64,000 nucleotides of DNA, taken from assembly GCF_900120005.1 (NCBI RefSeq), contig NZ_LT635447.1:1-64000 (forward strand), written 5' to 3'. The stretch comes from Holdemania sp. Marseille-P2844. GTDB taxonomy: Bacteria; Bacillota_I; Bacilli_A; Erysipelotrichales; Erysipelotrichaceae. Both the position numbers and the translations under genes were made by a program. Below are positions 17,062 through 42,637 of the stretch, piece after piece. A model generated the notes under the pieces. That model was given only the letters and a program-made list of their open reading frames with translations. It was not told where the DNA came from and ran no database searches. The stretch's first letter is position 1, and each line of letters opens with the position of its first letter.

Positions 17062-17417
17062 TCTTCAACCTGATTTCTGTAAAAACGGTTTTCTTCAAAT
17101 TCTTCTAATAAATCAATTTTATCATGTGTTACAGTCATAGCTTCATAATTTATCTTTCCGTTTAAATCTTCATAGAAATTCATCAAGCACCAACCATACA
17201 CTTCACACCAATACCATTCTCCATCTTCAAGCTCTTTAAATTTCAACGGAGGATTGTCAAAGTGTTTATTTATTAGTTTTTCTAGGTTTGATATATGCTT
17301 CATAATTCTTGGAGAATGAAAGCTTATATATCTTGGAGTATGTAAAAGAAAACTGTCTTTTAATTCTTTAGTTGCTTTTAAACATTCTTCTTTTGTAAGT
17401 TTCTTTTCATCAATCAT
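17058..17417 (-). CDS. Hypothetical phage protein
   Basis: 119 residues, AT-rich coding, beginning [14 protein letters not shown]. The N-terminal 60 residues are helical. A tryptophan-rich segment, [18 protein letters not shown] (about residues 67-84), looks like a small beta core. The start overlaps the stop of the pentapeptide gene (ATGATTGATG). I do not recognise the family. Confidence 0.68.
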
Positions 17418-18136
17418 CGTTCGACCACCTCCAACAGTTCGACTCGTTCACATCTGATTTTCCCATCCGAGTTGTACGGGACACAAACTCCGCAAAGCCA
17501 TTCCCAGCGAATTAAGACCTTCCAGATCTCGCCTTTGTAGTTGTTTTTAACAAATTCCAGCGGTGCGACGTTTATTCCACATCCGCAAGCATTGCATCTA
17601 TCAAAGTTCACATTCTCATTAATCACCGATCCGGCAATGATATTCCAACTTCCCGGCGGTTTGCGTTCACCGCCAAACGTTTTATACGCGATATATCCAT
17701 CTTTTGTTTTTTTAAAGTTTCTTTCCATGAAGTCAACCGCAGCTAATATTCCTTTAGATCCACTCAGGTTAGCGTATCTCAGGTCAGCGTTGCTCAGGTC
17801 AGCGCCACTCAGGTCAGCGTTGCTCAGGTTAGCGTATCTCAGGTTAGCGCCACTCAGGTTAGCGCCACTCAGGTCAGCGTTGCTCAGGTCAGCGTTGCTC
17901 AGGTCAGCGCCACTCAGGTCAGCGTTGCTCAGGTTAGCGTATCTCAGGTTAGCGCCACTCAGGTCAGCGTTGCTCAGGTCAGCGTTGCTCAGGTCAGCGC
18001 CACTCAGGTCAGCGTATCTCAGGTCAGCGTATCTCAGGTTAGCGTATCTCAGGTTAGCGCGTTCTCCGCCTTCTTCATCTAAAAGCCAGTTTTTATGGTT
18101 TTCCAATATTCTGTTCAGTTCTTTTTTATTCATCAT
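17414..18136 (-). CDS. Pentapeptide-repeat protein with Cys-containing C-terminal domain
   Basis: 240 residues. Residues about 25-128 are roughly 20 consecutive pentapeptides of the A(D/N)LSx, A(D/N)LRY kind, expected to fold as a right-handed quadrilateral beta helix. The remaining 110 residues form a separate domain with CNACGCG near 181-187, two later cysteines and many aromatics, and may bind zinc. DNA mimicry (Qnr, MfpA) is known for some pentapeptide proteins, but the arrays vary widely in role. It lies in the phage early/middle region with GGGGGTGAG before the start. The repeat array is unusually uniform at DNA level. Confidence 0.85.
17759..18061 (-). repeat. Tandem array of about 20 15-bp units
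   Basis: Units of the type GCTAACCTGAGATAC, GCTGACCTGAGCAAC and GCTGACCTGAGTGGC (minus strand) follow one another without interruption. Only a few positions vary, so units are nearly identical in DNA as well as in protein. This points to recent expansion or ongoing homogenisation by slippage or recombination. Copy number may differ between strains or be mis-assembled. Confidence 0.9.
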
Positions 18137-18534: not shown

Positions 18535-19287
18535 TCACAAATTCAAGCATACAGGCACATCCGACAACATCTTTTCTTTAGCTGCTCTGTAAAACTCTTT
18601 CTTGATCTCAAACCCATAGCAGTTCCGATTCAGCTCGGCGCAAGCTCTTAATGTGCTTCCGCTACCGGCCACCGGATCTATTACAACATCGCCTGGATCC
18701 GTGTAGATTTCAATCAGTCGTTTTAGCACTGGAACTGGTTTTTGTGTTGGGTGAATCCTCGGGTATTTTCCTGACTTATCCCACTCAAACCAATCCAGAA
18801 TCATCTTCCCACCGTTATTAAATTTAGGCAGTTTGTCCCGATACAGGACAAGCGCTGTTTCTGTCGCGCCGCAAATTCGCATGTTGGCTTTCAGTACCTG
18901 CGAAGAAGACTTCTTGACGAAGAATAACGGCTGTGTATGATTAAATCCAAATTGTTTTGCATAGTCTGTGATCTCGTTCAGCTGCTGCCAGCTGAAGAAG
19001 ATGATCATACACGGTGCTTTTCCTCTTTCCTTCGGCTCCGGCCTGAGAAGCCGCGTGCAGAACTGGAAAAAGTTATAAATTTTGAAATCTTTGTCCGTGT
19101 CAAAGAATTCCTTTCCCGCCTTATCACTTTCGCCATTTTTGTTGTCGCCGCCAATATACCAATCAGAACGGCTTCCGTAAGCGTTGATCCCGATATTGTA
19201 CGGTATGTCAGCAATGATCAACTGCGCCCGTGGGATCTGGTATCGTTTGGCGTTTTCAAAGTGATCGTTATACAACTCAATCTTCAT
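18535..19287 (-). CDS. Phage DNA methyltransferase (N6-adenine or N4-cytosine type)
   Basis: 250 residues from ATG at 19287, after GGCGGAG; a TTG five codons upstream is unlikely. The order of motifs is catalytic first: motif IV DIPY at residues 27-30 and the S-adenosylmethionine motif DPVAGSGST near 213-221, preceded by HPTQKPVPVL. That is the N6_N4_Mtase (beta-class) arrangement. DIPY in place of DPPY still retains the essential Asp and Pro-Tyr. There is no partner nuclease nearby, so it is an orphan that may protect phage DNA from host restriction or mark it for packaging. Confidence 0.9.
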   Translation of the reverse strand: MKIELYNDHFENAKRYQIPRAQLIIADIPYNIGINAYGSRSDWYIGGDNKNGESDKAGKEFFDTDKDFKIYNFFQFCTRLLRPEPKERGKAPCMIIFFSWQQLNEITDYAKQFGFNHTQPLFFVKKSSSQVLKANMRICGATETALVLYRDKLPKFNNGGKMILDWFEWDKSGKYPRIHPTQKPVPVLKRLIEIYTDPGDVVIDPVAGSGSTLRACAELNRNCYGFEIKKEFYRAAKEKMLSDVPVCLNL

Positions 19288-19302
19288 AACACTCCGCCTC
19301 AA

Positions 19303-27159: not shown

Positions 27160-28212
27160 TTACATATATTTTCTGTGGCTATGTTTAACATTTTCCTGTG
27201 ATACCTGGGCATAGATCATCGTTGTGTTGATCTCATTGTGTCCAAGCATCTGCTGCACTTCTTCGATTGGCATTCCTTTGGTCAAGGCCATCGTCGCACA
27301 GGTGCGTCTGAATTTATGCGGATGACACTTGATCCCGAGTTGATCGCCTAAATGCCGGAAGTAGCTTTCGATTCCACCTGCGCCGAGTATCGTTCCGGTA
27401 TTGTATGAATTCTGATACCCGGTGAACAGATACTCGCTGTCTACTGACATTTCTGATCTCACTTCAAGCCATTGCTTTAAGCGGATGATTGATATCTCGT
27501 TTAGATAACAGATTCGTTCTTTTGCACCTTTGCCGAACACGAGGATCTCGTTGCTTGTCAGGTTTAAATCCTTAAGCTTAGCTCCGGAAGCTTCACTTAC
27601 GCGGCAACCGGTGCTCAGCATAAATTCAAAGAGTGCTTGCATTCTTATCGCTACAAAACGATCTCGTGTATTTCTTGCCTTTTCAACCCGGTTCTTCAAT
27701 TCGTCTCGCATGAGTTCGATTTCTTCCTGGCTGAATGGTTTCTTGATCCGCTTGTCTTCTTTCATCTTCTTAATCGCCCGCATTGGATTCCTTGGAATAT
27801 ATCCATTATCCGCGAGCCAAGTAAAGAAGCTGGACAGATATCGACGCTCGCCGTTCAGTGTGGCTTTTGACAAATTCGGACTGTCGATCATCCGCTTTGC
27901 GAAGTGCATCCGCAGATCGTCCGTTGTAATGTCGGTGATCTTTTTTTGAATGTATAGGTGTAGATGTGAATTTAACTCCTGCCTATACACTTTAATGGAT
28001 CGATCACTCAATCCATCAATCTTTTTGCTTACCAAGAACAGCTGAATCAGCTTTTCGTCTTCGTAGCCATACGGTACGACTTCATTCTTTTTAGGTACCA
28101 GATCATAATCTTCGAGGCAAGTGATCAGTGTATTCTTTACAAGCTCAATTTCGCGGCTTTCAATTTTATCATTTAGCTTCAAAATGATTAAATTGATTAC
28201 ATCATTTTTCAC
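27160..28212 (-). CDS. Tyrosine recombinase (XerC/D-like), second in the prophage
   Basis: 350 residues from GTG at 28212, after GAGAGGTG and overlapping the previous stop as GTGA. An N-terminal SAM-like core-binding domain (about 65-155) is followed by a catalytic domain with STGCRVSEA (Arg), GKGAKER (Lys), PHKFRRT (His-x-x-Arg), LGHNEINTT (His) and the nucleophile in MIYAQ. All catalytic residues are present. It is not at the attachment site, where a different integrase lies. Inside the replication module it could resolve genome multimers, act on another site, or invert DNA. Confidence 0.92.
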   Translation of the reverse strand: MKNDVINLIILKLNDKIESREIELVKNTLITCLEDYDLVPKKNEVVPYGYEDEKLIQLFLVSKKIDGLSDRSIKVYRQELNSHLHLYIQKKITDITTDDLRMHFAKRMIDSPNLSKATLNGERRYLSSFFTWLADNGYIPRNPMRAIKKMKEDKRIKKPFSQEEIELMRDELKNRVEKARNTRDRFVAIRMQALFEFMLSTGCRVSEASGAKLKDLNLTSNEILVFGKGAKERICYLNEISIIRLKQWLEVRSEMSVDSEYLFTGYQNSYNTGTILGAGGIESYFRHLGDQLGIKCHPHKFRRTCATMALTKGMPIEEVQQMLGHNEINTTMIYAQVSQENVKHSHRKYM

Positions 28213-28826
28213 GGTGACACACCTCTCAAGCAATACATTGGCGTGACTAAGGTAAAATTGATTTCATTTTGCAGGGTATTGCCTTGCACACATATCGCAC
28301 TAATACCCGCAAAGCTAAACTGTAGATAAGACATCCACACACATTTGTAGTCGAGATCCTGGGCGACAACGTCAAGCAAACTTTGATAATCGTAACCTAA
28401 ACGCTGGATCTCCTTGGCTACCGCCAGAAAATTGGCCCCGCCGCCGACACTGGGCTCATTGGCTGTGATCTTTTCGCCGCTATATCCAGTAAGTACCGCC
28501 TTGGCCATCAGCACACACACATGAAATGGTGTGAAAAATTGACCTGTCCTCGAATTCCCGGCATTTAACATCATGTAGATGCTGCCGAGATAATCATTGA
28601 TATCATTCTCAAACAGCTCTACAAGCCTTGCGGTCCATCGGCACATTTCTTTTAACTGCTCATCGTTGTATTTTTTTGCAAGTGTCAGATACTGCTCTTC
28701 CAGTCGTTGATCGAAGAATAACTGGTTTGATATAGAGATCCCGGACATCTGCACCCAATCCTGGAAGATATCTTGAGCATGATAGCTGCCCGCCATCCTG
28801 TTGATGCCGTTGATGATTGCCTCCAT
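28209..28826 (-). CDS. N6-DNA-methylase-like protein, truncated/degenerate
   Basis: 205 residues. GQFFTPFHVCVLMAKA (about 94-109) and NEPSVGGGANFLAVA (about 123-137) correspond to the HsdM-type region before and at the cofactor motif, where DPACGSG-like sequence is usual. The catalytic NPPY region is absent; the protein ends soon after GNTLQNEINFTLVTPMY. This short form recurs in phages and may be non-catalytic or act with another subunit. Its stop overlaps the tyrosine recombinase start, suggesting the two products work together. Confidence 0.78.
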   Translation of the reverse strand: MEAIINGINRMAGSYHAQDIFQDWVQMSGISISNQLFFDQRLEEQYLTLAKKYNDEQLKEMCRWTARLVELFENDINDYLGSIYMMLNAGNSRTGQFFTPFHVCVLMAKAVLTGYSGEKITANEPSVGGGANFLAVAKEIQRLGYDYQSLLDVVAQDLDYKCVWMSYLQFSFAGISAICVQGNTLQNEINFTLVTPMYCLRGVSP

Positions 28827-28829
28827 AAG

Positions 28830-29351
28830 CTACTCAGCCAGCTGCTCCATGAGCTGGACTATCTTTTCTGTATCATCAGCCTCCGACCACAGCGAGCGCT
28901 GCTGTGCTACCGTGGTCAGGCCGTTGCCGTAGTAGTCGGCCATGATCTCAAACATGCGCCGCAGGCCATCCGTGGCCGTGCTGTACTGGCAGTACCGATC
29001 ACCGCACCGGATGCCGGCCGGATTGTGCTTGGCCAGCCAGGCCGATGAGCTACCCCAGCCAGTCTCAAGGACAAACACCGCCGCGGCGTAGACTGGGCTG
29101 ATGTTGTACTCCTCAGCCAGCTCCAGCAGTGCTACCGGCACCACGCCGGCGGCCTTGCCGATCGGCTGCCAGTCGTGCCAACTGACGTCCATCTCTGCGG
29201 TGTAAGCCGGCGTATCAGGCTGATAGAGATCGATCACGGTCACCGTCTGCCGTACTGGTGTCTCGGCCTCAGCTGCAGGCAGGTTAAGCGTCACGCCGGC
29301 GGTAATCGCAGCCGTGAGAGCCACGAGCACTGGGCGTCTAAGCCGGCGCAC
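28830..29351 (-). CDS. Secreted glucosaminidase-like protein in the early region
   Basis: 173 residues from GTG at 29351, with GGAGGATCGGTA upstream. Residues 1-29 form a signal peptide (basic start, then VALTAAITAGVTLNL and an AEAETP cleavage region). The mature part contains LLELAEEYNISPVYAAAVFVLETGWG and AKHNPAGIRCG, the helix and Glu-containing motif of glucosaminidase (LytG/FlgJ-like) domains. It is smaller than whole cell-wall hydrolases and lies among early genes rather than in a lysis cassette. It could remodel peptidoglycan during lysogeny or early infection. Catalysis is likely but unproven. Confidence 0.8.
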   Translation of the reverse strand: MRRLRRPVLVALTAAITAGVTLNLPAAEAETPVRQTVTVIDLYQPDTPAYTAEMDVSWHDWQPIGKAAGVVPVALLELAEEYNISPVYAAAVFVLETGWGSSSAWLAKHNPAGIRCGDRYCQYSTATDGLRRMFEIMADYYGNGLTTVAQQRSLWSEADDTEKIVQLMEQLAE

Positions 29352-29524
29352 TACCGATCCTCCTGGCCGATCAAATTTCGCATCTTGTCCATGATCTCCG
29401 TCTCCGTGTAAATATCCATCAGATACGCCATCTCCTCCACGATCTGGTCTATCTCGTCCATCTTAAGTCCGATATGCTTTGCTGCCACCGCTGCATAAGC
29501 GCGGGTTGCTTCGTTCGTTGTCAT
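29351..29524 (-). CDS. 57-residue phage protein
   Basis: ATG at 29524 with GAGGAGGTGCCAGA upstream. The stop TAG overlaps the GTG start of the secreted protein (TAGTG). The product begins MTTNEATRAYAAVAAKHIG and is an acidic helical protein. No family is recognised; the overlap links its translation to the secreted enzyme-like gene. Confidence 0.65.
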   Translation of the reverse strand: MTTNEATRAYAAVAAKHIGLKMDEIDQIVEEMAYLMDIYTETEIMDKMRNLIGQEDR

Positions 29525-29890: not shown

Positions 29891-30256
29891 TCAGTTCAGT
29901 TTTGTTCTTGCCTTCCGGTTGCCGCCGGTTGGCTTTTTTTGTGCTGTCAGCGTCTCGCTGATCCGCAACTGGTTGACCGCCTCGATAATTTTTTGCTCGC
30001 TGCTCAGGTCCATGCCGCGGGTCCGCTCCAGAAATCTCTCGGCCTCTTCCCGGGTGTATATCCACTCCTGCCCGTTCCGCGTGCCGGTAAGCAACCCATG
30101 CTTGCGCAGCACATGGATCCTTTGCGGATATGTACCCAACGCCTCGGCAAGCTCCTTGGTGGTGTAAACCAGCTTGTACTGATTAGCAGCCAAGCTGGCC
30201 TGCAACATGTCAACCTTTTTTGTTAGCTGCTCGATGGCAGCCAGTAACTCGTCCAT
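29891..30256 (-). CDS. HTH DNA-binding protein (excisionase/MerR-like)
   Basis: 121 residues with GGAGGATTAAGGGC before ATG. An N-terminal coiled coil (residues 3-27) is followed by a winged-helix/MerR-type HTH, TTKELAEALGTYPQRIHVLRKHGLL, and a wing with GTRNGQEWIYTREE. The basic C-terminus is variable. Early position and domain suggest an excisionase-like or regulatory protein. About 30 bp downstream a short inverted repeat precedes the next gene. Confidence 0.78.
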   Translation of the reverse strand: MDELLAAIEQLTKKVDMLQASLAANQYKLVYTTKELAEALGTYPQRIHVLRKHGLLTGTRNGQEWIYTREEAERFLERTRGMDLSSEQKIIEAVNQLRISETLTAQKKPTGGNRKARTKLN

Positions 30257-30598: not shown

Positions 30599-30887
30599 CC
30601 CCTATTCTTCATAGCTAAGATCGCACACCGTGCGCCAGCAGACGGCTGTTTTTGCTTAGAATGACAATCGCTTTTTATATTTGCTTACCATGGCAAATAT
30701 AATAGATTCTAAGTGTTGCACAGCAAGCAACCATACTTTACTGTGGCTGAAATGTAATCTTAGCTACCGCTCAATAGGGTCTTCGGCAGAAGCGTCCTGC
30801 CTTAAGTGGGTGGACTTCCAGGTGACGCTGGAAGTTGAGGTAAACAAATAACGCAGGCATCAGTGCGTCACCACTGGTGCTTTTTTA
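30599..30887 (+). ncRNA. Candidate structured non-coding RNA, about 275-290 nt, with intrinsic terminator
   Basis: No gene lies between 30453 and 30885, but the plus strand contains nested helices. A 10-bp perfect helix (30612-30621 with 30757-30766) is extended outward by 7 bp (CCCTATT 30600-30606 with AATAGGG 30773-30779). It encloses hairpins at 30622-30634 and 30636-30648, a 9-bp helix (30654-30662/30706-30714) capped by a 10-bp hairpin (30675-30684/30693-30702), and a hairpin at 30719-30745. Beyond are hairpins at 30785-30801 and 30814-30835. A 9-bp stem plus TTTTTT (30857-30886) terminates it. TTGACA-N17-TATTCT (30580-30608) could be its promoter, though the outer helix would then need an upstream start. 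No class is recognised. Confidence 0.7.
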
Positions 30888-31094
30888 TTTGTTGTTGAAG
30901 AATACTTGATCGACACTAACATCAGGAAATTTCACTTTAAATTTCTTAAGAAATTCATAACTTGGATTTTGATATCCACTTTCAACCTTGTAGTAATAGG
31001 AAGCAGAAACACCTATTTTTTCAGCCATTGCTTTTTTAGTTAAATCAGCCGATCTTCTAAGGTTAATTAAGTTCACCATTTCTTTACTTTTCAT
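30885..31094 (-). CDS. Cro-side XRE-family HTH protein
   Basis: 69 residues, a single HTH domain: LRRSADLTKKAMAEKIGVS then ASYYYKVESGYQNPSYEFLK. It lies in the transcript divergent from the CI-type repressor and probably acts as the Cro-like or secondary regulator of the lytic switch. The start overlaps the previous gene by 11 bp. Its stop codon coincides with the end of the RNA candidate on the opposite strand. Confidence 0.85.
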   Translation of the reverse strand: MKSKEMVNLINLRRSADLTKKAMAEKIGVSASYYYKVESGYQNPSYEFLKKFKVKFPDVSVDQVFFNNK

Positions 31095-31437
31095 CGAATA
31101 ATTCCTCTATCAATTCTTTAGGCACCGGCTGATTCTGTCTTTTGTGCTTATCAGCCAACGACATTTCAGCTTCCTCTCTCTGGATCGCTTCCATGCAGTC
31201 TTTTACTCCTTTTCTTTTTTTGATCAGATATTCCTCGCCATCTATGGATATGCCATTTATTTTTTTACCTCGGCTGTTCCATAATAGAGAACATTCATTT
31301 CCGTATGCTCTTAGGAGATTCATGGCTGCGGTGAGCTGCTGCCATGGTTTTCCGAGCTGCTTGGTCTTGTTGATTTCTTTTGCCAATTCAAGCAATACTC
31401 CTGGATTTACCATAATTTCAATTTGTTTTTTCTTCAT
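31084..31437 (-). CDS. Phage protein in the Cro-side operon
   Basis: 117 residues with AAGGAGGTGTGAG before ATG. It begins MKKKQIEIMVNPGVLLELAK and has a helical body, with a beta hairpin at NGISIDGEEYLIKK and a charged C-terminus. I recognise no family. Being in the first lytic transcript it may be an antirepressor or regulator, but this is only positional inference. Confidence 0.65.
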   Translation of the reverse strand: MKKKQIEIMVNPGVLLELAKEINKTKQLGKPWQQLTAAMNLLRAYGNECSLLWNSRGKKINGISIDGEEYLIKKRKGVKDCMEAIQREEAEMSLADKHKRQNQPVPKELIEELFDEK

Positions 31438-31438
31438 C

Positions 31439-31474
31439 TCACACCTCCTTGACGTTGGCTTCTTCTAAATTCAT
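31439..31474 (-). CDS. 11-residue ORF coupled to the next gene
   Basis: ATG at 31474 follows GGAGGCAATAAG and encodes MNLEEANVKEV. Its coding sequence contains the AAGGAGG ribosome binding site of the next gene and it stops one base before that gene's ATG. This looks like a coupling peptide that delivers ribosomes to the downstream start. Very short, so the call is tentative. Confidence 0.35.
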   Translation of the reverse strand: MNLEEANVKEV

Positions 31475-31491
31475 CTTATTGCCTCCTTTTT

Positions 31492-31623
31492 CTAATTGAC
31501 GCCGAACAGCTTTTTGTAGGACTCAAGTCCGTAGCCTGTTGTTTCAATTACAAACTCATGTTTGACGCTATCGTAGATGCCGTACCAGTTGGTGCTGATC
31601 TGTTTTACTTCGTATCTTTTCAT
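31492..31623 (-). CDS. 43-residue first protein of the lytic transcript
   Basis: ATG at 31623 after AAAGGAGAACATAAG, about 25 bases from the predicted transcription start. The product begins MKRYEVKQISTNWYGIYDSV and looks like a compact beta protein. It is the first gene on the Cro-side transcript. Short leading proteins at this position are common in Bacillota phages; no function known. Confidence 0.62.
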   Translation of the reverse strand: MKRYEVKQISTNWYGIYDSVKHEFVIETTGYGLESYKKLFGVN

Positions 31624-31642
31624 CTTATGTTCTCCTTTAATC

Positions 31643-31722
31643 TATTGCAATATCATATTACACCAAACGTTTATTTCCGTCAATACAAAAATATTGCAAA
31701 AGTTTATTTTTTAGTTTATGAT
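31643..31722. promoter_or_regulatory. Divergent lysis-lysogeny promoters with two operator dyads
   Basis: Minus strand: TTGACG (31678-31683), a 17-bp spacer and TAATAT (31655-31660), giving a start near 31648. Plus strand: TTGCAA (31694-31699), 17 bp and TATGAT (31717-31722), giving a start near 31729 for the repressor. Two matching dyads built on TATTGCAATA lie at 31643-31652 (perfect, at the minus start site) and 31691-31700 (9 of 10, over the plus -35), 49 bp apart. Repressor bound at both would shut lytic transcription and control its own synthesis. Confidence 0.8.
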
Positions 31723-31753
31723 AGGTTTGTAATTAGAAAGGAGGTATCAATAA

Positions 31754-32143
31754 ATGACTATAAATGAGCGCGTGCGCGCATTGAGAAAGGAACTCGGGAT
31801 GAATCAGACTGAATTTGGCGAGCGTATCGCCTTATCACAAGGTCACCTTACAAGTGTCGAACAAGGCAAAAGAGCAGTTACCGACCGAACCATCAAATTG
31901 ATTTGTACTGAATTCGGTGTATCTGAAGATTGGCTGCGGACAGGCAAAGAGCCCAAGTATTTGAATGATGATGATTCCAGTCTTTTCCGGCAGGCCGCTG
32001 CGGGCATCGAGATGGTTGATGACAAACGTGCGATGGCTGCGCTTGAGGTTTACTGGTCGCTAAGCCCGGATGACAAAAAAGTGATCTGGACAATGCTTGA
32101 CCAGATTTATGAAAAAGTGCATAAAAAAAAGAGCAGCGACTAA
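31754..32143 (+). CDS. CI-type prophage repressor (XRE family)
   Basis: 129 residues with AAAGGAGG before ATG. The N-terminal XRE HTH includes RALRKELGMNQTEFGERIAL then SQGHLTSVEQGKR. The second half is a short helical region (SLFRQAAAGIEMV, PDDKKVIWTMLDQIYEKV), likely for dimerisation. There is no S24 peptidase domain, so RecA-stimulated self-cleavage as in lambda CI is not expected; induction would need an antirepressor or another route. It is expressed from a promoter overlapping an operator dyad. Confidence 0.88.
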   Translation: MTINERVRALRKELGMNQTEFGERIALSQGHLTSVEQGKRAVTDRTIKLICTEFGVSEDWLRTGKEPKYLNDDDSSLFRQAAAGIEMVDDKRAMAALEVYWSLSPDDKKVIWTMLDQIYEKVHKKKSSD

Positions 32144-32901: not shown

Positions 32902-33007
32902 TGAGGAACTGATTGCAGTCAGAACCTCTGCATAGAAAAATTTGTCGTGGCAGACATATCTTTTTCTATGCGCTCATTTTACCACAAAAAGAAAAGGAGC
33001 GCTATAT

Positions 33008-34177
33008 ATGGCAAAAACAAAAAAACTCCGCAAGGAAAAATACATCAAGCAAAAAACAGTCAATGGTCGCTTATATTTACAGGTATCATTTTTGTATGAG
33101 GATGAATATGGCTTTAAACAATCGTACAGCAAGAGTTTCCGCGCAGACGATTACGAGTCAGCCGCCGCGGCTCTGGACGTTGCCTGTGCACACCGCGATC
33201 AGATGCGTACCCAGCTGCTGCACAGCGGCCAGAAGGTCCGCGCACGAGCTGACAGAAAGCATACGGTGGATGAGGCGTTTATGCTGATCCAGCAGATATT
33301 TCCAAAAACCTTAAAGACAGTCAAGCACCGTACGATTACCTACCGCAATTACATCCAGCCGGCTGTCGGCAACAAGCCGATTGAGGAGATCACCGGCCTG
33401 GACATCCAGCAGACGCTTAACGCGATGATCACCACAAAGTCAGACGACAACATCGGACGGGTGGCCACCTGCTGGAGATATATAATCCGGGCGGCTGCCT
33501 TCACAGGCTGGATCAGCAGCGATCCTATGCTGCAGGTGGTTGTCCCAGCATCGCAGCTGCCACATAAAAAAACAGATGTATCGACAGATCGCGAAACACT
33601 CGATAAAGTCATCGCCGGCATCCGGCATTATACTAAAAATAATGACAGGTATAAATTTAACGCTGAACTCATCGTTTATATGCTTGAGATCATCTATTAT
33701 ACCGGGATCCGGCCGGCAGAATGCCTGGGGCTTGATAAAGCAGATATCGATCTTGACGCCGGATATATAAACATTGATACCGCACAGGGCAGCACGACCA
33801 AGGAATGGAACACGCAGAAGGCGACAAAGACTAAACAAAGCGTGCGTCTGGAGCCGATCGTTCCGCAGCTTGAACCAATCTTGCGGCAGCTCATCGGTAT
33901 ACAGCCTAGTGAGCATTTGTTTATGCGCTGCGATGATACTGTATGGTCTATTGATGATGTTGCAAACAAGATCAACTATGTCAGCAAGCGTGTGGGTGTC
34001 GATTTTAACGTATACCGGTTGCGGCACAAATTTTCCACTGACCTTGTCACCAACAACGTCGATCCGCGCACGATCATGGAGCTCATGGGACATAACAATA
34101 TCAATCAAACATTGGACTATGCCAGGAGCAACGATCAATTAAAAAAAGATGCATTGAAAAATCGCAAATACTCATGA
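33008..34177 (+). CDS. int: Phage integrase (tyrosine recombinase)
   Basis: 389 residues from ATG at 33008, after AAAAGGAGCG; the frame is open 22 codons further upstream but without a site. An N-terminal AP2-like arm-binding domain (about 1-70), a SAM-like core-binding domain (about 80-170) and a catalytic domain follow. The catalytic Arg is in YTGIRPAE, a Lys precedes TKQSVRLEP, His-x-x-Arg is RLRHKFST, and the final His and Tyr are in MGHNNINQTLDYAR. It ends about 170 bp from the tRNA-Leu 3' end and should integrate the phage there. Confidence 0.96.
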   Translation: MAKTKKLRKEKYIKQKTVNGRLYLQVSFLYEDEYGFKQSYSKSFRADDYESAAAALDVACAHRDQMRTQLLHSGQKVRARADRKHTVDEAFMLIQQIFPKTLKTVKHRTITYRNYIQPAVGNKPIEEITGLDIQQTLNAMITTKSDDNIGRVATCWRYIIRAAAFTGWISSDPMLQVVVPASQLPHKKTDVSTDRETLDKVIAGIRHYTKNNDRYKFNAELIVYMLEIIYYTGIRPAECLGLDKADIDLDAGYINIDTAQGSTTKEWNTQKATKTKQSVRLEPIVPQLEPILRQLIGIQPSEHLFMRCDDTVWSIDDVANKINYVSKRVGVDFNVYRLRHKFSTDLVTNNVDPRTIMELMGHNNINQTLDYARSNDQLKKDALKNRKYS

Positions 34178-34349: not shown

Positions 34350-34395
34350 TGGTGCACCGAACGGGACTTGAACCCGTACGAATAAATCACACGCC
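34350..34395. other. Probable prophage attachment site (att, right junction)
   Basis: The 3' half of the tRNA-Leu gene faces the integrase. tRNA-targeting integrases usually recombine within the T-arm or anticodon-loop sequence, leaving the gene intact. The core duplication cannot be delimited here because the other junction is outside the window. A second copy of some of this segment should lie at the left end of the prophage. Confidence 0.6.
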
Positions 34396-34433
34396 CCTCA
34401 AACGTGCGCGTCTGCCGATTCCGCCACCGGTGC
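34350..34433 (-). tRNA. tRNA-Leu (anticodon GAG)
   Basis: The minus strand folds as a class II tRNA. Acceptor GCACCGG pairs with TCGGTGC (one G-U), the D-arm region has GGCGGAATCGGCAGACG, the anticodon stem is CACGT/GCGTG around TTGAGGG, a variable arm follows, and the T-arm is ACGGG-TTCAAGT-CCCGT. Anticodon GAG reads CUC/CUU leucine codons. ACCA is encoded at the 3' end (34350-34353). A TATAAT -10 box lies at 34445-34450, just upstream. Confidence 0.96.
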
Positions 34434-34581: not shown

Positions 34582-37500
34582 TCAATCGGGATTTCCGTTT
34601 TTTTCCGGCAGCACCCGGCTGAGCACCACATAAAGCAAATCAATATCAATCGGTTTCGCGACATGCGCAGTCATTCCCGCCGCCATGGACGCTTCCACAT
34701 CCTCCGCAAACGCGTTGGCCGTCATCGCGACGATCGGAATCTGCCGCGCGTCCGGGCGAGGTAATTGACGGATTGCCCGGGTCGCTTCATAACCGTTCAT
34801 CACCGGCATCTGGATATCCATTAATATCGCGTCGTAATACCCCTCGGGCTTGTCGCTGAAGTTGCTGACCGCCTGTTTTCCATCACAGCAGACCTCAAAC
34901 CGGGCGCCGGCCAATTCCAGAATGCCGCTGAGAATTTCCGCATTGATCTGATTATCTTCCACGATCAGAAAACGCCGCCGCGCCAGATTTTGATCCACCT
35001 GCGGCTTCACGGTCAAAGTCTTTGACGAATCCGGATTATCCGTTTCTCCGCTGAAATCCTGTTCACATTCCAGTTCGACGATAAACGTAGAGCCGTGTCC
35101 GACTTCACTTTCCACTTGGAGACTGCCGCCCATCCGTTCGATCAGACCGCGCGTGATGCTTAATCCCAATCCCGTCCCCTCGATCTGTCCGACTTGCGGA
35201 CTGCGGGCAAACGGATCGAACAAATGGGCCAGAAACTGCGGCTCGATGCCGATGCCGGTGTCGCGGATTGTAAAACGGTATCTCACCTGTCCCGGAGATG
35301 AACCGGCGATTTCCTCCACGATGAAATCCACCTGGCCTCCCTCCGGAGTGAATTTGACGGCGTTGCTTAAAATGTTGATCAGAATCTGATTGATCCGCAG
35401 CGCATCGCCAAAGAACCGGGTGTGTTCGATCCGCTCGGCATTGATATTCAGCCGAATCGCTTTGGCTCGCGCCTGCGGTCCCATGATTGCCGACAACTGT
35501 TCGATCACCTCCGGCATCCGCAGACCAGCGCGGTTCAATGTAATCTGCGAACGCTCGATCTTGCTCATATCGAGAACGTCGTTGATCAAACTCAGCAGAT
35601 GTTTGGACGAATAGGTAATTTTTTTCAGACAATCCGCCACCCGCCGGGAATCATCCAGATGGGCTCTCGCCAGCGCGGTCATCCCCATTATCGCGTTCAT
35701 CGGCGTGCGGATATCATGACTCATCGCCGAAAGGAAATCACTCTTGGCCCGGTTGGCTTCCTCGGCCTGGATCAGCGCATTTTCCAGTGTATTTTTCGTC
35801 TGACGTTCCGCGGCGAGCATCTCCGTAACGTCCGCGCGCACAAGACAGACAGTCTGATGATCGGCGTCCCCCCACAGCACGCTGACTTTTTTTATCCGCT
35901 CGCCAGCCTCGCTCTGATAAGGAAACAGGAAATCATAGCCTTGCGGCTCACGCTGCAGGCGCTTTAGCATCGTCGCCAGGGCAAATTGCCGGCTGCTCTC
36001 CTCCGCGCTGCCGCTCTGACTGTGGCTGCGGGCAAACTTGTCAATCGCTTCGTCGCAGTTTTCAACGATATACGGCGGCAGATTCTCCACAATAGTCTGG
36101 CGTGTATGAATGGTCAGCCGCTGCGAAGCGATATCAATGAACCCGGCCAATTCAAAGATTACGGCGGCTACCCGCAGCAGTCCCTGCTGCTCGCGCACCG
36201 ACTCGGTGATGTCGGTCCGGGACAGGCAGATCCGGTTTAACCGCCGGTCCGTGACCGACACAGTGACGTTTTTCATGCGCAATTCGCCGCGCGGATCGCA
36301 CATTGAGAATGTGAATGTAAACGAGTTTTCTTTCGCCAGCCGGGGTTTCAGGAATTCCGGTTTCAAATTGCCGGCGTAGCGTTCCTTATCCTTGGGCAGC
36401 ACATGGCTTTCCAGCAGCTGATCAATCCATTGAGAATAGCGGCCATGCGTCCTTGCGGTCAGCGCCGTCTGTTCGTTCTGGGTCAGAATCTTAAATGTAT
36501 CCGCACCCAGGTCGATATCGGCGACAAAATCATAGTTGATTTTTGACAGCTGCTGCAGAATCAGGTTGGCGATTGTCTTTTCCGTGATGTCCGTGACAGT
36601 CAGAATCCCCGTAACGTCCCCGCTGTCCGGCGTCGTTACCATGTTCATTTTAATTTCGACATAGCGGCCTTGCGATTCCCTGGGCAGCTGCACGAAACAT
36701 TCCTGAATCTGCACAGTTTCTCCGGCCGCGAATTCCCGCCGGGCCGGCTCGTTTAAATAATGATCAAGGAAATACCGGCGCTGATCCGGCTCGACGATCA
36801 ACGACGCCAATCCTTTAAAGAACACGTCGCGGTCGTAGCCGAAAGTTGCCAGCAATTCGGAATCCGTGTAATCCATGATGTCCAGAATCACGCCCTGAGT
36901 GATGTTGCAATGTCCCGCTACCAGCGCATTTTCCCCCGGTGTGCGGTAATGTTCAAGAATCAGTTCGTTATACTGCTGGCGAATCCGCTGCTGTTCCAGC
37001 CGTTCCCGGGTGATATCGTGATGCAGCGCATAGACGCGGATTTCCCCTTCCTCACCCGGGATCATCGCCAGCTTGCTGCTGACCCAGATCTGACCTTTGT
37101 CTGCCGTCAGCATGCGGAAAACAATTTCGCCCTGAGGTTGGCGGTCGGCGATGAACTGAAGCAGCTGGCGGCGGACTCTTGCCTGATCTTCCGGATGAAT
37201 GTTCGCGGTAAAATCCTGCCGGATCGCCTGACTTATCGCAGCGTAGCTCATCCCCGCCATTTCGGCAAATCCTTCCGAGATGTATTCCGGAATCAGCTGC
37301 CCCTTTGGCGTACATTCGATCACCGTCACGCCGCCCGGCAAATTCTGGACGACCGTCTGAAAATACTGCGCCAGCCGTTCGTTTTCCTTGCGGACGCGGA
37401 CTTCCTCGGTGATCTCACGAACATGCTTGATATAAGCCCCGATCCCGTTCCAATCCGTTTCACGAAAGCGGGTCGCATAAAAACGGCCGGGCTGATCGAC

Positions 37501-39087
37501 GGACATCTCATGTTCTTCATTATCCGGCGCGTGTGTTTTCAGCGTGCAGAAGGCGCAGGGCTGCGACTTGCCAAACAGCACTGCGTAGCATTTCCGGCCG
37601 GCATATTGTTGATCATTGGAAAAAATTTTATGGTTATCGTTGACATAATAAAGTTCATAGTTCTGCTTGCCGATCACATAAATCCCATCCGAGGATTCAT
37701 CGGCGATACTCTGGTACAACCGGGTTTCCGCCGACATGCCGGTAAACACCGCATAGAACTGCGTCGATTCCGACAGGGGACCCATTCGCCGGCCGTTCAG
37801 GTGTATCCAGACCAGCGAACCATCGCGGTGAGGACTGCGGTAGGAAACATCCAGCACCTCGCCGCTGACTAATGCCTGCCACGCCGCTTTCTGCACCCGC
37901 TCGCGATCCGGCGGATAGATTGCGTTCATCGCATCCTGATGGACGATAGTCTGAAATTCCTGCTTTCCATAACCGGTCAGCTCTGCGACGCCGGCAGAGA
38001 AATACGTCGGGATAAAGACCTTGTTTTCCACTTTATAACTGGCGATTCCGCCGGGAATGGAATTGACCAGATGATTCATCTGGAGCTGCGCTTCCTTGAG
38101 ATCGGAAATATTGTGGAACACGCAGTGAAGCAGCGAACTGCCGTCCTCCTCGCCGATCCAGCTGATCTGTACGCGCACCCAGACGAGGTGACCGTCACGG
38201 TGAGCCATGCGGAATTCCAGCGTCGCCGGCTCATGCGTGCGCACGACTTCCACAGCCTGGGCCTCGACGCGGCCACGGTCCTGATCATAGATCAACTTGC
38301 CGGCGTCTGCGGCAGCCTGGACAGAATATTCTTGAGAAGTATATCCGCTGAGCGCAGGCACGCCATCGGAGAAATAAACGGTCTCCAACTTGTCCGTCAC
38401 TTTATAAACGGCAACGCCGCCCGGGATTGCATTGATGATCTGCTGCATTTTCTGATTGGCGGCGTTAAGCTGTGTTTTTAACGCGGCCTGTTCGCTGCCG
38501 TCCTGAAACAGGCTTACCAGCACCGTTCCCCATTGAGGCAGCGTGCCCATCGAAGCCTCAATCTGAATTGCACAGTAACATCCCTGCGTTTTATCCCACG
38601 CCCGCAAGCTGTGCCGCAATGTTCCGCGCTCTGTTTTCAGCTGTTGCAAAGCCCGCTGCAGTGCTGGCCGATCTTGTGGATGCACGGCAGTCTGCGCCAG
38701 AAGTCCCTCTGCAGGTTCGCCGAAGTGCTGCCGAAAAGCAGCGTTGGCATACAATGGCGGCGATGCATTGTCCGCAAGCTGATAAATCACGAATCCGCAG
38801 GCAAGCGCGTCCCCCAAATTTTCCAGCATTGTGAAAAATGACGGGACTTCCGGTGTCAGTACCAACAGCGTCGCCGTTTCCTCAGCAATCTTCAGCGTCT
38901 GAACTTCCGTTGTGTAGCGCGCCTGCGTGCGGGGATTTTGCCAGACAGCCGGATTCTGGTTTTCCCCGATGTTCTCCAGCCAGCCGCTGAAGTCGGGATC
39001 CTGACTCCAGCTTTGCGCCGCTTCGTTGGCCGGCTGCCATTTCATCTGTGAACCGCGGACAAACAAGATTGTTTTATGGGAATTCAT
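34582..39087 (-). CDS. Very large soluble hybrid histidine kinase with multiple PAS domains and receiver
   Basis: 1,501 residues from ATG at 39087, which overlaps the HPt stop as ATGA. There is no transmembrane segment. At least six PAS-type sensor domains are stacked over about 1,100 residues; repeats of PGG(V/I)A(V/S)YKV, YPPDRERVQ, HRDGSLVWIH mark them. The kinase core has [14 protein letters not shown] with His1124, N box [10 protein letters not shown]1 DTGIGIEP and G2 GTGLGLS. A receiver (about 1,370-1,490) has IVEDN, phospho-Asp in LMDIQMP, and a Lys in VAKPID. It should pass phosphate to its receiver and the HPt protein. Confidence 0.93.
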   Translation of the reverse strand: MNSHKTILFVRGSQMKWQPANEAAQSWSQDPDFSGWLENIGENQNPAVWQNPRTQARYTTEVQTLKIAEETATLLVLTPEVPSFFTMLENLGDALACGFVIYQLADNASPPLYANAAFRQHFGEPAEGLLAQTAVHPQDRPALQRALQQLKTERGTLRHSLRAWDKTQGCYCAIQIEASMGTLPQWGTVLVSLFQDGSEQAALKTQLNAANQKMQQIINAIPGGVAVYKVTDKLETVYFSDGVPALSGYTSQEYSVQAAADAGKLIYDQDRGRVEAQAVEVVRTHEPATLEFRMAHRDGHLVWVRVQISWIGEEDGSSLLHCVFHNISDLKEAQLQMNHLVNSIPGGIASYKVENKVFIPTYFSAGVAELTGYGKQEFQTIVHQDAMNAIYPPDRERVQKAAWQALVSGEVLDVSYRSPHRDGSLVWIHLNGRRMGPLSESTQFYAVFTGMSAETRLYQSIADESSDGIYVIGKQNYELYYVNDNHKIFSNDQQYAGRKCYAVLFGKSQPCAFCTLKTHAPDNEEHEMSVDQPGRFYATRFRETDWNGIGAYIKHVREITEEVRVRKENERLAQYFQTVVQNLPGGVTVIECTPKGQLIPEYISEGFAEMAGMSYAAISQAIRQDFTANIHPEDQARVRRQLLQFIADRQPQGEIVFRMLTADKGQIWVSSKLAMIPGEEGEIRVYALHHDITRERLEQQRIRQQYNELILEHYRTPGENALVAGHCNITQGVILDIMDYTDSELLATFGYDRDVFFKGLASLIVEPDQRRYFLDHYLNEPARREFAAGETVQIQECFVQLPRESQGRYVEIKMNMVTTPDSGDVTGILTVTDITEKTIANLILQQLSKINYDFVADIDLGADTFKILTQNEQTALTARTHGRYSQWIDQLLESHVLPKDKERYAGNLKPEFLKPRLAKENSFTFTFSMCDPRGELRMKNVTVSVTDRRLNRICLSRTDITESVREQQGLLRVAAVIFELAGFIDIASQRLTIHTRQTIVENLPPYIVENCDEAIDKFARSHSQSGSAEESSRQFALATMLKRLQREPQGYDFLFPYQSEAGERIKKVSVLWGDADHQTVCLVRADVTEMLAAERQTKNTLENALIQAEEANRAKSDFLSAMSHDIRTPMNAIMGMTALARAHLDDSRRVADCLKKITYSSKHLLSLINDVLDMSKIERSQITLNRAGLRMPEVIEQLSAIMGPQARAKAIRLNINAERIEHTRFFGDALRINQILINILSNAVKFTPEGGQVDFIVEEIAGSSPGQVRYRFTIRDTGIGIEPQFLAHLFDPFARSPQVGQIEGTGLGLSITRGLIERMGGSLQVESEVGHGSTFIVELECEQDFSGETDNPDSSKTLTVKPQVDQNLARRRFLIVEDNQINAEILSGILELAGARFEVCCDGKQAVSNFSDKPEGYYDAILMDIQMPVMNGYEATRAIRQLPRPDARQIPIVAMTANAFAEDVEASMAAGMTAHVAKPIDIDLLYVVLSRVLPEKNGNPD

Positions 39088-39452
39088 AACGAACACGCGG
39101 TCAGCTCGGCATACATCCCTCTGACCTTCTCAAACTCCTGCCCGATCTTTTCCAGCTTTTCTGGATAATCGCCCCGAACTTCCAAGCGCCGCAAAGGCTC
39201 CACGATCTCGCAGACCGCTTCGTACAACGACGTTAATCCCAGATTGCCAGATACGCCCTTGAGCGTGTGAGCCGCCTGAAAAGCAGCTTCCAGATTTTTT
39301 TCTTCTACCGCTTTCTGCAGCGCCGGCAAGCTCTCATCCTTGAACAACATGCCTAAAATCCGCACATACATGCGTTCCTGCTGCATAAACCGTTCCATTG
39401 TCAGCGCATAATCCACGCCGTAGGCCGTCATAATCATTTTAACGTCTGACAT
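39084..39452 (-). CDS. Stand-alone HPt phosphotransfer protein
   Basis: 122 residues forming one HPt four-helix bundle. The phospho-accepting His62 lies in AHTLKGVSGNLGL, the canonical HPt motif. Such proteins shuttle phosphate between receivers. It lies between the genes of the two hybrid kinases and overlaps both, the first by 19 bp. It is the natural link between them and the response regulator encoded at the head of the operon. Confidence 0.93.
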   Translation of the reverse strand: MSDVKMIMTAYGVDYALTMERFMQQERMYVRILGMLFKDESLPALQKAVEEKNLEAAFQAAHTLKGVSGNLGLTSLYEAVCEIVEPLRRLEVRGDYPEKLEKIGQEFEKVRGMYAELTACSL

Positions 39453-42400
39453 CCGAAAACCTCCTTGTTTCCGATAAATTCATTCAGCGTCCGGATCAGT
39501 AAGTCCGGATCAATCGGCTTCGCCAGATGCGCGTTCATCCCGGCCGCCATGCTTTTTGCGATATCGTCGTCAAACGCGTTGGCGGTCATGGCGATGATCG
39601 GAATCTGTCCGGCATCCGCGCGCGGACTGGTGCGGATCCTGGCCGCGGCAGTTAAGCCGTCCATGACCGGCATCCGGATATCCATTAAGATTGCATCGTA
39701 GTAATTCAGGGCGGAAGCCTGATAAGTCTGCAGCGCCTGTTCGCCGTTTTGCGCCGTATCAACGCTGAAGCCCCTGTCCTGTAAAAGCATAGCCGCGACT
39801 TCGGTATTGATGGCGTTGTCTTCGGCCAGTAAAATCCGCCGGCCGGTAAAGTCCAGCGTCTTCAGATCCAGACCCCCGGCGTCCCCGGCGGAAACGATGC
39901 CGGCGAAAGTTTCATGGACGCCCGCTGCCAGACCAAGCTTGACCTCAACGATAAATTCCGTACCCCGGCCCTTTTGCGAACGGACGCTGATTCTTCCATC
40001 CATCAGATCGACGACGCTTTTGGAAATTGCCAGCCCCAGCCCGCTGCCGCCGGATGTCGCCGTCGTCCCGGTTGACTCCTGAGAGAACGGTTCAAACAGA
40101 TGCGGCAGAAACTCCGGGCTGATGCCGACGCCCGTATCCCGAATCACAAACCGGACGACGGCGTTGTCTTTCTTTGCCTGAAGCTGGCTGACGTGCATCA
40201 CCACCTCGCCGCCGGACTCTGTGAATTTCACCGCGTTGCTTAAGATATTGACCAGCACCTGCTGCAGCTTCATCGCATCGCCCATATACTCCGCCTGCAG
40301 CGAAGGTTCGACGATGCATTGATAACGCACGCCTTTGTTCGCGGCCTGACCGGCGCACAGAGTGCTGACTCCTTCGATCAGTTTCCGCGTGGATAAAGGT
40401 CCGTTATTTAAAAGCAGCTTGCCGCTTTCAATCCGGCTCATGTCGAGGATATCGTTGATCAGTCCCAGCAGAAACCGCGAAGACAGCTGAATTTTTTCAA
40501 TACAGTCGCCAATGCGGACCGGATCGTGCAGCGACTGGGCGGCGATTGCGCTCATTCCCAGAATCGCGTTCATCGGGGTGCGAATCTCATGCGACATCCG
40601 CGAGAGAAAATCCGTCTTCGCGGCGTTGGCCTGCTGCGCGGCGTTCAGTGCGGAAGCCAGCTCCGCTTTCTGAATCTGTTCCTGACGCACGACCTCGGTC
40701 ACGTCGCTGCGCGTCACGCACAACCGATCCAGCCGGCGGTCGAGATAGAAAACTTTATACAGTTTGACACGGGTCTGTCCCTGCTTGTCCTGCATTTCAA
40801 TGGAAAAGGTATAGGATCCCTTTTCCGCCAGCTGTTGTTTCATAAAAGGCAAATCGAGCTGACGGCGGTATTCCGCTTCAAACTCCGGTTTGACATAACG
40901 CCGGGCAAATTGTCCGATCGCTTTTGAAAATTGATCCTCCTTTGGAATCATCGGATCGTTGGAAGCATGAATCCGCAGTTTTCCGGACAGCGCGTCGATT
41001 TCCGCGATGATGTCGTAATTCAGACTGACGATCTGATCCAGCAGCTGTTCCTGCAGCTTTTGTTCCGTGATGTCAAGGGTATAGAAAAAGACGATGAGTT
41101 CCCCGGTTTCCGGATTCAGGCAGGAATGAAACGTTGTATGACTCCAGAACGCGCCTTCGCGCGTACTGCGCAGAAATTCAAAATGATATTCCGTCTTGCC
41201 GACGGCGTAATCGGCCTGGACCTGTTCGCGCCGCATTTGCTCTTCAATCCGCAAGCCGGTCAGCGGGTCGATGGAGGAATGCGCAAACTGAGCGATCACC
41301 TTGTCATAGCTTTCGCCGATCTGAGCAACGGCGAAGTTGGCCGTCGTCAGATAGCTTTCCAGCACATTGCGGGTCAGATTCAGCCGTCCCTGACCGCTCT
41401 GATTGCCGCTGGCAGCCTCCACAAAGTAACGCAGTTCCCGTTCGTACAGTTCCTTTTCGCGCCGGTGGAGCTGCTTTTCCTCGGTAATATCAATAAACAC
41501 ACAGTCAAGATACGGTTCGTTGTTTTCCATAAACAGCTGAGCTTTCACCGAGACCCACTTCACGCTGCCATCCTTGCAGCAAATCTGGTTTTCAATGTGG
41601 ACGGTTTTCGCCTGACGCAGCTGTTCGCGCAATCGTTGGGCGATTTCCTGCAGTTCCTGCGGGGCGATGATCAGCGCCAGCTGATTGCCCAGCTCGGCAA
41701 ATTCAGCGCGGGTGTAGCCGATGAACTCAAACAGTCCGTCGTTGGCGCTGACAACAGTCAGGCTGGCGTCGTAACGGCAGCGGAAAACCGCGCCGGGAAT
41801 GTTGTTGTACAGCCGCAGCACTTCCTCCTGCGCCTGAATCTGTGCGGTGATGTCATAGCACACCGACGAAATCGCCGGACGTCCGTCCTCCGCCTGCAGC
41901 CGCCGACCCAGATCATGAACCCAGATATAACTGCCGTTCTGCTTCTTCATCCGATATTCCACCGTGTATTCATCGCTGGTTTTCAGCTGATCGGCGACTT
42001 CCTCATCGACCCGCTGCCGATCGTCCGGATGCATGCAGTTGATGATCCGGCCCTGGATGTCCGCGACGAATTCCGCTTCGTCCCGATATCCCAGATACGC
42101 CAGCATCTGATCATTGATGAAATAAAACGGGAAGCCCTCGGCGATATAGCCGCCCATCATCCCGCCCGGGAGCGTGTCGTTCAGCAGCTCTTCCCGCTGG
42201 CGGCGCAGCCGTTCCACAACCACCGTCTGCGGGTAGTGCTCACCCGCCTGCTGACTGCGGCCCGGTTCGGCAAAATGCAGACTGACGATTTTCCAGGTCT
42301 CCGCCTGCCGCCGCAAGATAAAAAACCCCCGAAGATGCCAGGCATACTGGGAGTTTTGAAGAATCATTTCAGTAAAAACAGAACTCAGATCCGCTTGTAA

Positions 42401-42637
42401 AAAACGGACTTTCATCACAGGAAAAGCGGCCGAAAACGGTTCGGCCAATTCCTGAATATCCGCGACGATATACGCGTGCATCGCTTCCCGCCCGCTGGCG
42501 GCTTCCTGTTCGCCAGTTCCGATAAAATCAAGGTCCTCATCCAGATAGCCGACGGTTTTCTCCACATCGCGTGCTTCAAACCAGGCCTCGCAGAACTGCC
42601 GGACTATTTTTTCACAATTTCGCTCCTGATCCCCCAT
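39434..42637 (-). CDS. Soluble hybrid histidine kinase with SnoaL-like and PAS domains
   Basis: 1,067 residues from ATG at 42637 ([12 protein letters not shown]), with GGGAGGAAG upstream and a 34-bp overlap with the preceding gene. The first 125 residues are a SnoaL/NTF2-like domain ([21 protein letters not shown]), then PAS domains (about 160-640). The kinase core has [13 protein letters not shown] with His683, [17 protein letters not shown] and GSGLGLA. A C-terminal receiver has [16 protein letters not shown] and LAKPIDP. No membrane segment. It probably senses a cytoplasmic small molecule or redox state and feeds the shared HPt protein. Confidence 0.93.

Follow-up and report, generated by a model that had tools for sequence, protein, structure and literature searches.

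Gene content of the locus

The window, a 64,000-nucleotide stretch of Holdemania sp. Marseille-P2844 (contig NZ_LT635447.1), carries part of a prophage. A GTG-initiated gene on its minus strand (28830..29351) encodes an early glucosaminidase-like protein of 173 residues, predicted to be secreted and assigned from the ORF and from Pfam PF01832. The Pfam match, which spans residues 76-143 (28923..29126, minus strand), scored 33.7 bits where the cut-off is 30.2 (E 6.4e-8; residues 75-142 of a 172-residue query), and because the score lies above the cut-off, 28830-29351 is more than a chance ORF. By eye, the N-terminus has an Arg-rich start, a hydrophobic stretch and the sequence AEA/E. From this reading and the hydropathy, with its maximum of 1.77 at residue 8, a signal peptide of residues 1-29 is predicted (29265..29351, minus strand), with cleavage after AEA. 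The sequence AGGAGG at 29359..29364 (minus strand), 7 bases upstream of the GTG, gives the gene its own ribosome-binding site.

The start of the gene overlaps, as TAGTG, an acidic ORF of 57 residues taken from the ORF list (29351..29524, minus strand). Both ORFs and their overlap agree with a preliminary description of this DNA, and its claim of an exported glucosaminidase-type protein in an early region is likewise borne out by the Pfam match, the by-eye signal peptide and the gene order, export being predicted. The same description had coupled the enzyme to the 57-residue protein as a meaningful partner, which we did not find. That ORF precedes the gene in two of the six window-type prophages read (the window and C17) and is not a conserved partner of the glucosaminidase; it had zero Pfam or PHROG matches.

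The glucosaminidase gene lies in a minus-strand early lytic operon, flanked by regulators on one side and recombination genes on the other. The order is an excisionase-like HTH gene (29891-30256), a 103-residue ORF, the 57-residue ORF, the glucosaminidase, a methylase-like fragment of 205 residues (28209..28826; weak Pfam match to N6_Mtase, and phrog_5696), a second tyrosine recombinase (27160..28233; Pfam Phage_integrase, E 6.4e-37) and an SbcC-like ATPase. A divergent Cro/CI-type (repressor/Cro) pair occupies 30885-32143. An integrase-like recombinase (32942..34177, plus strand) beside a tRNA-Leu (34350-34433, ARAGORN) marks the prophage end; its label comes from reading by eye and from 41% identity to the L010 gene that occupies the integrase position. 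Outside the window, neighbours were labelled by eye, except where a label from Pfam, PHROG or a record is given.

Several further features of these prophages were recorded. A second tyrosine recombinase, additional to the integrase at the prophage end, follows soon behind the glucosaminidase in several cases: in the window (27160-28233, minus strand), in L085 (12551-13489) and L091 (4075-4995), both labelled by eye, and in Erysipelothrix phage SE-1 (7210-8193). Between the window and the C17 prophage this recombinase is 100% identical, and the genes around it differ. The 205-residue methylase-like protein (phrog_5696) corresponds to the front part of N6 methylases only, and in each of the two prophages that encode it the recombinase is its neighbour. 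By eye, the gene at 18535-19302 is DNA-methylase-like; it is 97% identical to one in L011 (10898-11650), a second prophage on the same contig, and a pentapeptide-repeat-like protein with A[DN]L repeats (by eye) is encoded inside the prophage at 17414-18136 (minus strand). Directly outside it, 34582-39096 and 39434-42691 (minus strand) encode proteins of 1504 and 1085 residues that by eye are multi-PAS sensor kinases with receiver domains.

The enzyme domain and its predicted fold

In a first alignment of six members, the Glu and Thr of an ETGWG motif and the Asn, Pro and Gly of an NPAG motif were invariant, and the Glu and Thr of ETGWG remained so in alignments A1 and A3; the G015 sequence, which has a very long branch in the tree, carries ETSYG in place of ETGWG. 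From A1, A3 and the LytB motif, the putative catalytic Glu of the window protein is residue 96 (29064..29066, minus strand). A profile made from the six-member alignment was run against solved structures and found the glucosaminidase domain of the Clostridioides difficile endolysin Ecd09610 as well as LytB, where Glu96 aligns with the Glu of the LESNWG motif. The best sequence match among solved structures was 8yxk, the Ecd09610 domain (E 4.1e-7).

The model of the window protein is of modest confidence (mean pLDDT 60.6, core blocks 73-83). With it, Foldseek ranked LytB, Autolysin E, Ecd09610, Auto and FlgJ first (LytB 7pj3, E 9.6e-4). The model of the Dielma relative's readthrough product, also of modest confidence, matched LytB with a Z of 11.5 over 117 residues (rmsd 3.0). 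Structure prediction had been proposed as a check on the ETGWG Glu; the Glu is conserved and the predicted fold matches GH73 enzymes. By profile score, catalytic Glu motif and modelled fold, the window protein is a putative glucosaminidase of GH73 type.

Four relatives that were tested scored below the PF01832 cut-off of 30.2 (21.1 to 28.7 bits). The search for a dedicated phage family gave weak PHROG matches only, to pieces of large endolysin families (phrog_3513 for the window protein, E 0.0033), so the enzyme has no PHROG of its own. Neither the NCBIfam scan nor the VIA list contained a family for it, and absence from the latter excludes nothing.

A small family with four architectures

The gene is a member of a small unnamed family. 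Three more copies occur in the same genome (95%, 86% and 47% identity), each in another prophage-like stretch. Within the order, a broad profile at 1e-10 matched 24 places, spread over 19 of 315 genomes, and broader draws gave matches in 6 of 392 genomes of the phylum and 6 of 395 of the class, where five of the six in each draw came from the same bacterial family and the sixth was weak. Together the three draws place the family mainly in prophages of one bacterial family. Named members come from Dielma fastidiosa and Erysipelothrix phage SE-1; Thomasclavelia phages TR-TP1 and TR-TP2 are more remote.

Four architectures were found: a signal peptide as in the window, a membrane anchor in a single ORF, a gene split by TGA and a gene split by a -1 change of frame. 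The 16 of 24 places with E at most 1.7e-25 were classed, as 4 of window type, 5 TGA, 2 frameshift and 5 single-ORF anchor; the 8 weaker places (E 2e-15 to 4.3e-13, open frames of 117-401 residues) were left unclassed. Duplicates across collections were counted once (L013 and L077, L012 and L078, L027 and L073, SE-1 and L093), and the weak matches L069, L076, L079 and L080, long single ORFs, were set aside. L071 and L072 were excluded from the tree and the folds because of indels.

In the tree, three UGA-split members, both -1 members and three single-ORF anchors share one clade (100/99). UGA as a label requires four changes on the tree, at least two of them forced by starred branches; given this and the shared clade, delivery modes seem to have been swapped between members. 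The window type forms its own group (99/99) with signal peptides and free of the internal stop, and the window copy itself is neither split nor recoded. Here delivery seems to be conventional, by a signal peptide. Split versions that look recoded are visible from the relatives only, which is why they had gone unnoticed in the preliminary description.

Relatives split by an in-frame TGA

In nine sequences, TGA closes a membrane/coiled-coil ORF, with the enzyme downstream in the same frame. L012, L013 and L014 have a short ORF of this kind and one TGA in frame with the enzyme; the others are G211, G218, L070, SE-1, L071 and L072. The stop is TGA followed by A in all nine. Leaky UGA codons prefer A as the following base. 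TGA ends 35 of the 188 ORFs of at least 100 residues in the split loci, and the chance of finding it in all six lineages is about 4e-5, a rough figure that assumes independent lineages. Net positive charge precedes the hydrophobic stretch of the first ORF in eight of the nine TGA sequences (G009 has net zero) and in both sequences from the frameshift genome G170, and the enzyme side should therefore face outward.

Might the split relatives be ordinary gene pairs, with the enzyme made separately by re-initiation behind the TGA? Phage operons often have stops that overlap starts, and standard start codons are present behind the TGA in L012, where ATG is the third codon, and at later positions in L013, L014 and L070; these four enzymes could in principle start late, at the cost of part of the conserved stretch after the TGA. 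However, the ATG of L012 is ATA in L071 and L072 and is thus not a conserved start, and the stretch that separates the TGA from any start shows conservation (GxDTRID or ETRID). ATG, GTG and TTG are absent from the 15 codons between the TGA and the catalytic Glu in G211, SE-1 and G218, where the sole near-cognate codon (ATT or ATA) is the one right before the Glu, and also from the 14 codons leading to the Glu in both G170 sequences; five of the 11 split sequences thus have a start-codon-free stretch from stop to Glu. The constant use of TGA speaks against gene pairs as well, and an enzyme with neither anchor nor signal would remain inside the cell. We regard re-initiation as unlikely.

A second alternative, on which codon comparisons bear, is that the split genes are pseudogenes in decay or products of sequencing error. 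Besides the TGA, L071 and L072 (the two copies from IMG genome 2648501420) contain small indels within the enzyme domain, which may reflect decay or an assembly error in that genome, and stops in prophage genes are often ascribed to pseudogenization, as is done for mobile elements in PMC7918605. Against decay, selection behind the stop is purifying. Over the 17 codons right after the TGA, differences between L071 and L072 fall on 8.5 of the 12.5 synonymous sites and on 3.5 of the 38.5 nonsynonymous ones (p 0.00027); the same drift test gave p 0.014 and 0.026 for Dielma L012 against L071 and L072, and pN/pS 0.16 (p 0.05) for G211 against SE-1, a borderline value, like that of the G170 pair below, since these pairs are close. 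Catalytic and core residues are kept, and nine sequences from several lineages and independent sequencing projects, including that of phage SE-1, share one type of stop at one domain boundary. The slippery heptamer described below is correctly phased in both prophages of the -1 form. Decay or error is thus very unlikely. Conserved in-frame coding behind a conserved type of stop, a criterion for readthrough, is found in the relatives and marks them as readthrough candidates.

Other ways of decoding the TGA were considered. Selenocysteine was rejected, with SelB over its cut-off in 0 of 10 genomes and tRNA-Sec over gathering in 0 of 10; reassignment of TGA was rejected from the 35 of 188 ORFs that end in it. 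ARAGORN found no suppressor tRNA with a UCA anticodon in 15 prophage sources. A tRNA-Trp (CCA), the tRNA expected to misread UGA, adjoins the G015 prophage with its TGA-split gene (L014 15945-16018), which may be a coincidence. No conserved stimulatory hairpin was common to the split sequences (z-scores from -4.3 to +0.5, patternless); the Dielma-type sequences share a small CTCGT/ACGAG hairpin, seen by eye.

Relatives split by a -1 frameshift

In two prophages of G170, the last codons of the anchor ORF are GAA AAA AAG TAA, and the enzyme follows in frame -1. An in-phase A_AAA_AAG followed by TAA is present in both, in keeping with the sequence criteria of programmed -1 frameshifting. In the -1 frame the pair has pN/pS 0.15 (p 0.048). 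Fold z-scores gave no strong RNA fold behind the slippery site in G170. The run of seven A could also act by transcriptional rather than ribosomal slippage.

Genomic position of the family and of the lysis genes

The gene stands among early genes in all 18 copies whose neighbourhood was read (the window, C17, C14, the second C10 copy, L017, L018, G027, G009, G015, G211, G218, both G170 copies, G217, G223, G213, SE-1 and TR-TP1; the count leaves out L070-L072 and two G212 copies). Neighbours in the relatives are regulators (HTH genes, antirepressors) and recombination or replication genes. The preliminary description had named the same gene in lysis cassettes of close relatives as evidence that would speak against it; none was found. 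SE-1 has a holin and a CHAP protein about 10 kb from the gene, and the late lysis genes of the C14 prophage encode a Hol44-type holin and a protein whose NlpC/P60 match falls short of the Pfam cut-off. An endolysin displaced from the lysis cassette was rejected on these grounds.

SE-1 was isolated as a phage and has its own independent record. The enzyme half of its split gene (KR816341.1, 8478-8768) is unannotated, and the record lists the anchor ORF AKQ06874.1 only. Current annotation thus overlooks the enzyme half of split genes, as the SE-1 record illustrates.

Proposed mechanism and role

The window gene probably encodes a small exported N-acetylglucosaminidase of GH73 type, expressed early in the lytic cycle and belonging to a family that would deliver its enzyme outside the membrane, with recoding in relatives. 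We infer the early timing and the place outside the membrane from gene position and sequence. Made from the early operon, the window enzyme would act on peptidoglycan outside the membrane well before lysis. Delivery to the outer membrane face in the family would be achieved by a signal peptide, by a single-ORF anchor, or by an anchor/coiled-coil ORF joined to the enzyme by recoding.

In the split forms, joining would occur only when ribosomes read through UGA or slip by -1 on A_AAA_AAG, and the relatives appear to make a tethered enzyme at low dose in this way. Recoding would yield much bare anchor and little anchored enzyme, a ratio by which the wall enzyme would be kept at low dose. UGA is leaky in Bacillus, at about 6% for one reporter according to earlier work quoted in PMC7918605, and PMC9481147 gives about 12% readthrough in one E. 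coli reporter and far less in Pseudomonas. Levels of that order would place few enzyme-bearing anchors among many bare ones. UGA readthrough and -1 frameshifting could supply the same ratio, which fusion, or a signal peptide as in the window, would give up.

The leading candidate for its job would be to alter or cut the wall where a second phage would inject, and such early superinfection exclusion is the likeliest single role, though less likely than not; loosening of the wall for the phage's own later needs is the next candidate. The preliminary description had likewise put forward superinfection exclusion, alongside wall remodelling and prophage release, as possible uses. PADLOC returned zero matches for the enzyme, from which membership of a defence system was rejected; a role in superinfection exclusion is compatible with this result. 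More tentatively, the split forms could be wall hydrolases tethered and dosed by recoding in the style of gag-pol, in which many anchors and few enzyme-bearing subunits would assemble early on the outer face of the membrane and, by limited cutting of the wall, block or divert an incoming phage.

A lesser possibility is that the enzyme is an auxiliary lysis protein, transcribed early and slowly weakening the wall so that the late holin and hydrolase finish quickly. The enzyme class, the predicted export and low dose would suit this, and gp117 of Thomasclavelia phage TR-TP1 is annotated as an endolysin; yet every neighbourhood read is early, and the prophages checked have late lysis genes of their own. 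That the enzyme serves the lysogen or host, in wall turnover or fitness, instead of the lytic cycle is doubtful. One genome holds four copies, all prophage-linked by context, and the signal-peptide form could reach the medium, but the gene is on the Cro side of the divergent switch and would be expected to be silent in a lysogen. We rank hindrance of a second phage through a change in the wall above auxiliary lysis, and auxiliary lysis above host benefit. The family suggests that phages may touch the wall in an early step, long before lysis, that has gone unrecognised.

Comparison with known systems

Taken singly, GH73 enzymes, UGA readthrough and dnaX-type slippage have all been described. 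In the open-licence literature searched, we found neither a GH73 enzyme combined with UGA readthrough or dnaX-type slippage in an early prophage gene nor a description of stop readthrough by which a DNA phage attaches an enzyme to a membrane anchor.

The family shares its predicted fold and catalytic Glu motif with the GH73 glucosaminidases LytB, Auto, FlgJ and AtlA (PF01832). Unlike these enzymes, its members are very short, lack wall-binding repeats, are encoded by prophage early genes and in several cases are apparently joined to an anchor by recoding. The top solved-structure sequence match, 8yxk, is by its title an endolysin domain, whereas the window protein is encoded outside a lysis cassette.

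Coliphage Q-beta likewise has an in-frame UGA, readthrough of which gives a functional extension. There the extended product is a virion protein, whereas here an early gene of a DNA phage would add an enzyme to a membrane anchor. The heptamer of both G170 sequences is identical to the -1 shift site of dnaX, A_AAA_AAG, as given in PMC5009743, and is in the right phase; in contrast to dnaX, G170 would join an anchor to a wall enzyme, and no stimulator was found in the RNA folds. Retroviral gag-pol uses readthrough in some viruses and -1 frameshifting in others, according to the same paper. The present family likewise appears to interchange the two modes at one domain boundary with the enzyme expected in small ratio, but it does so in bacterial prophages, with a wall enzyme and with recoding predicted from sequence. 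A single boundary at which UGA readthrough, -1 frameshifting and plain fusion appear to be swapped provides a natural setting in which to compare recoding modes in Gram-positive hosts.
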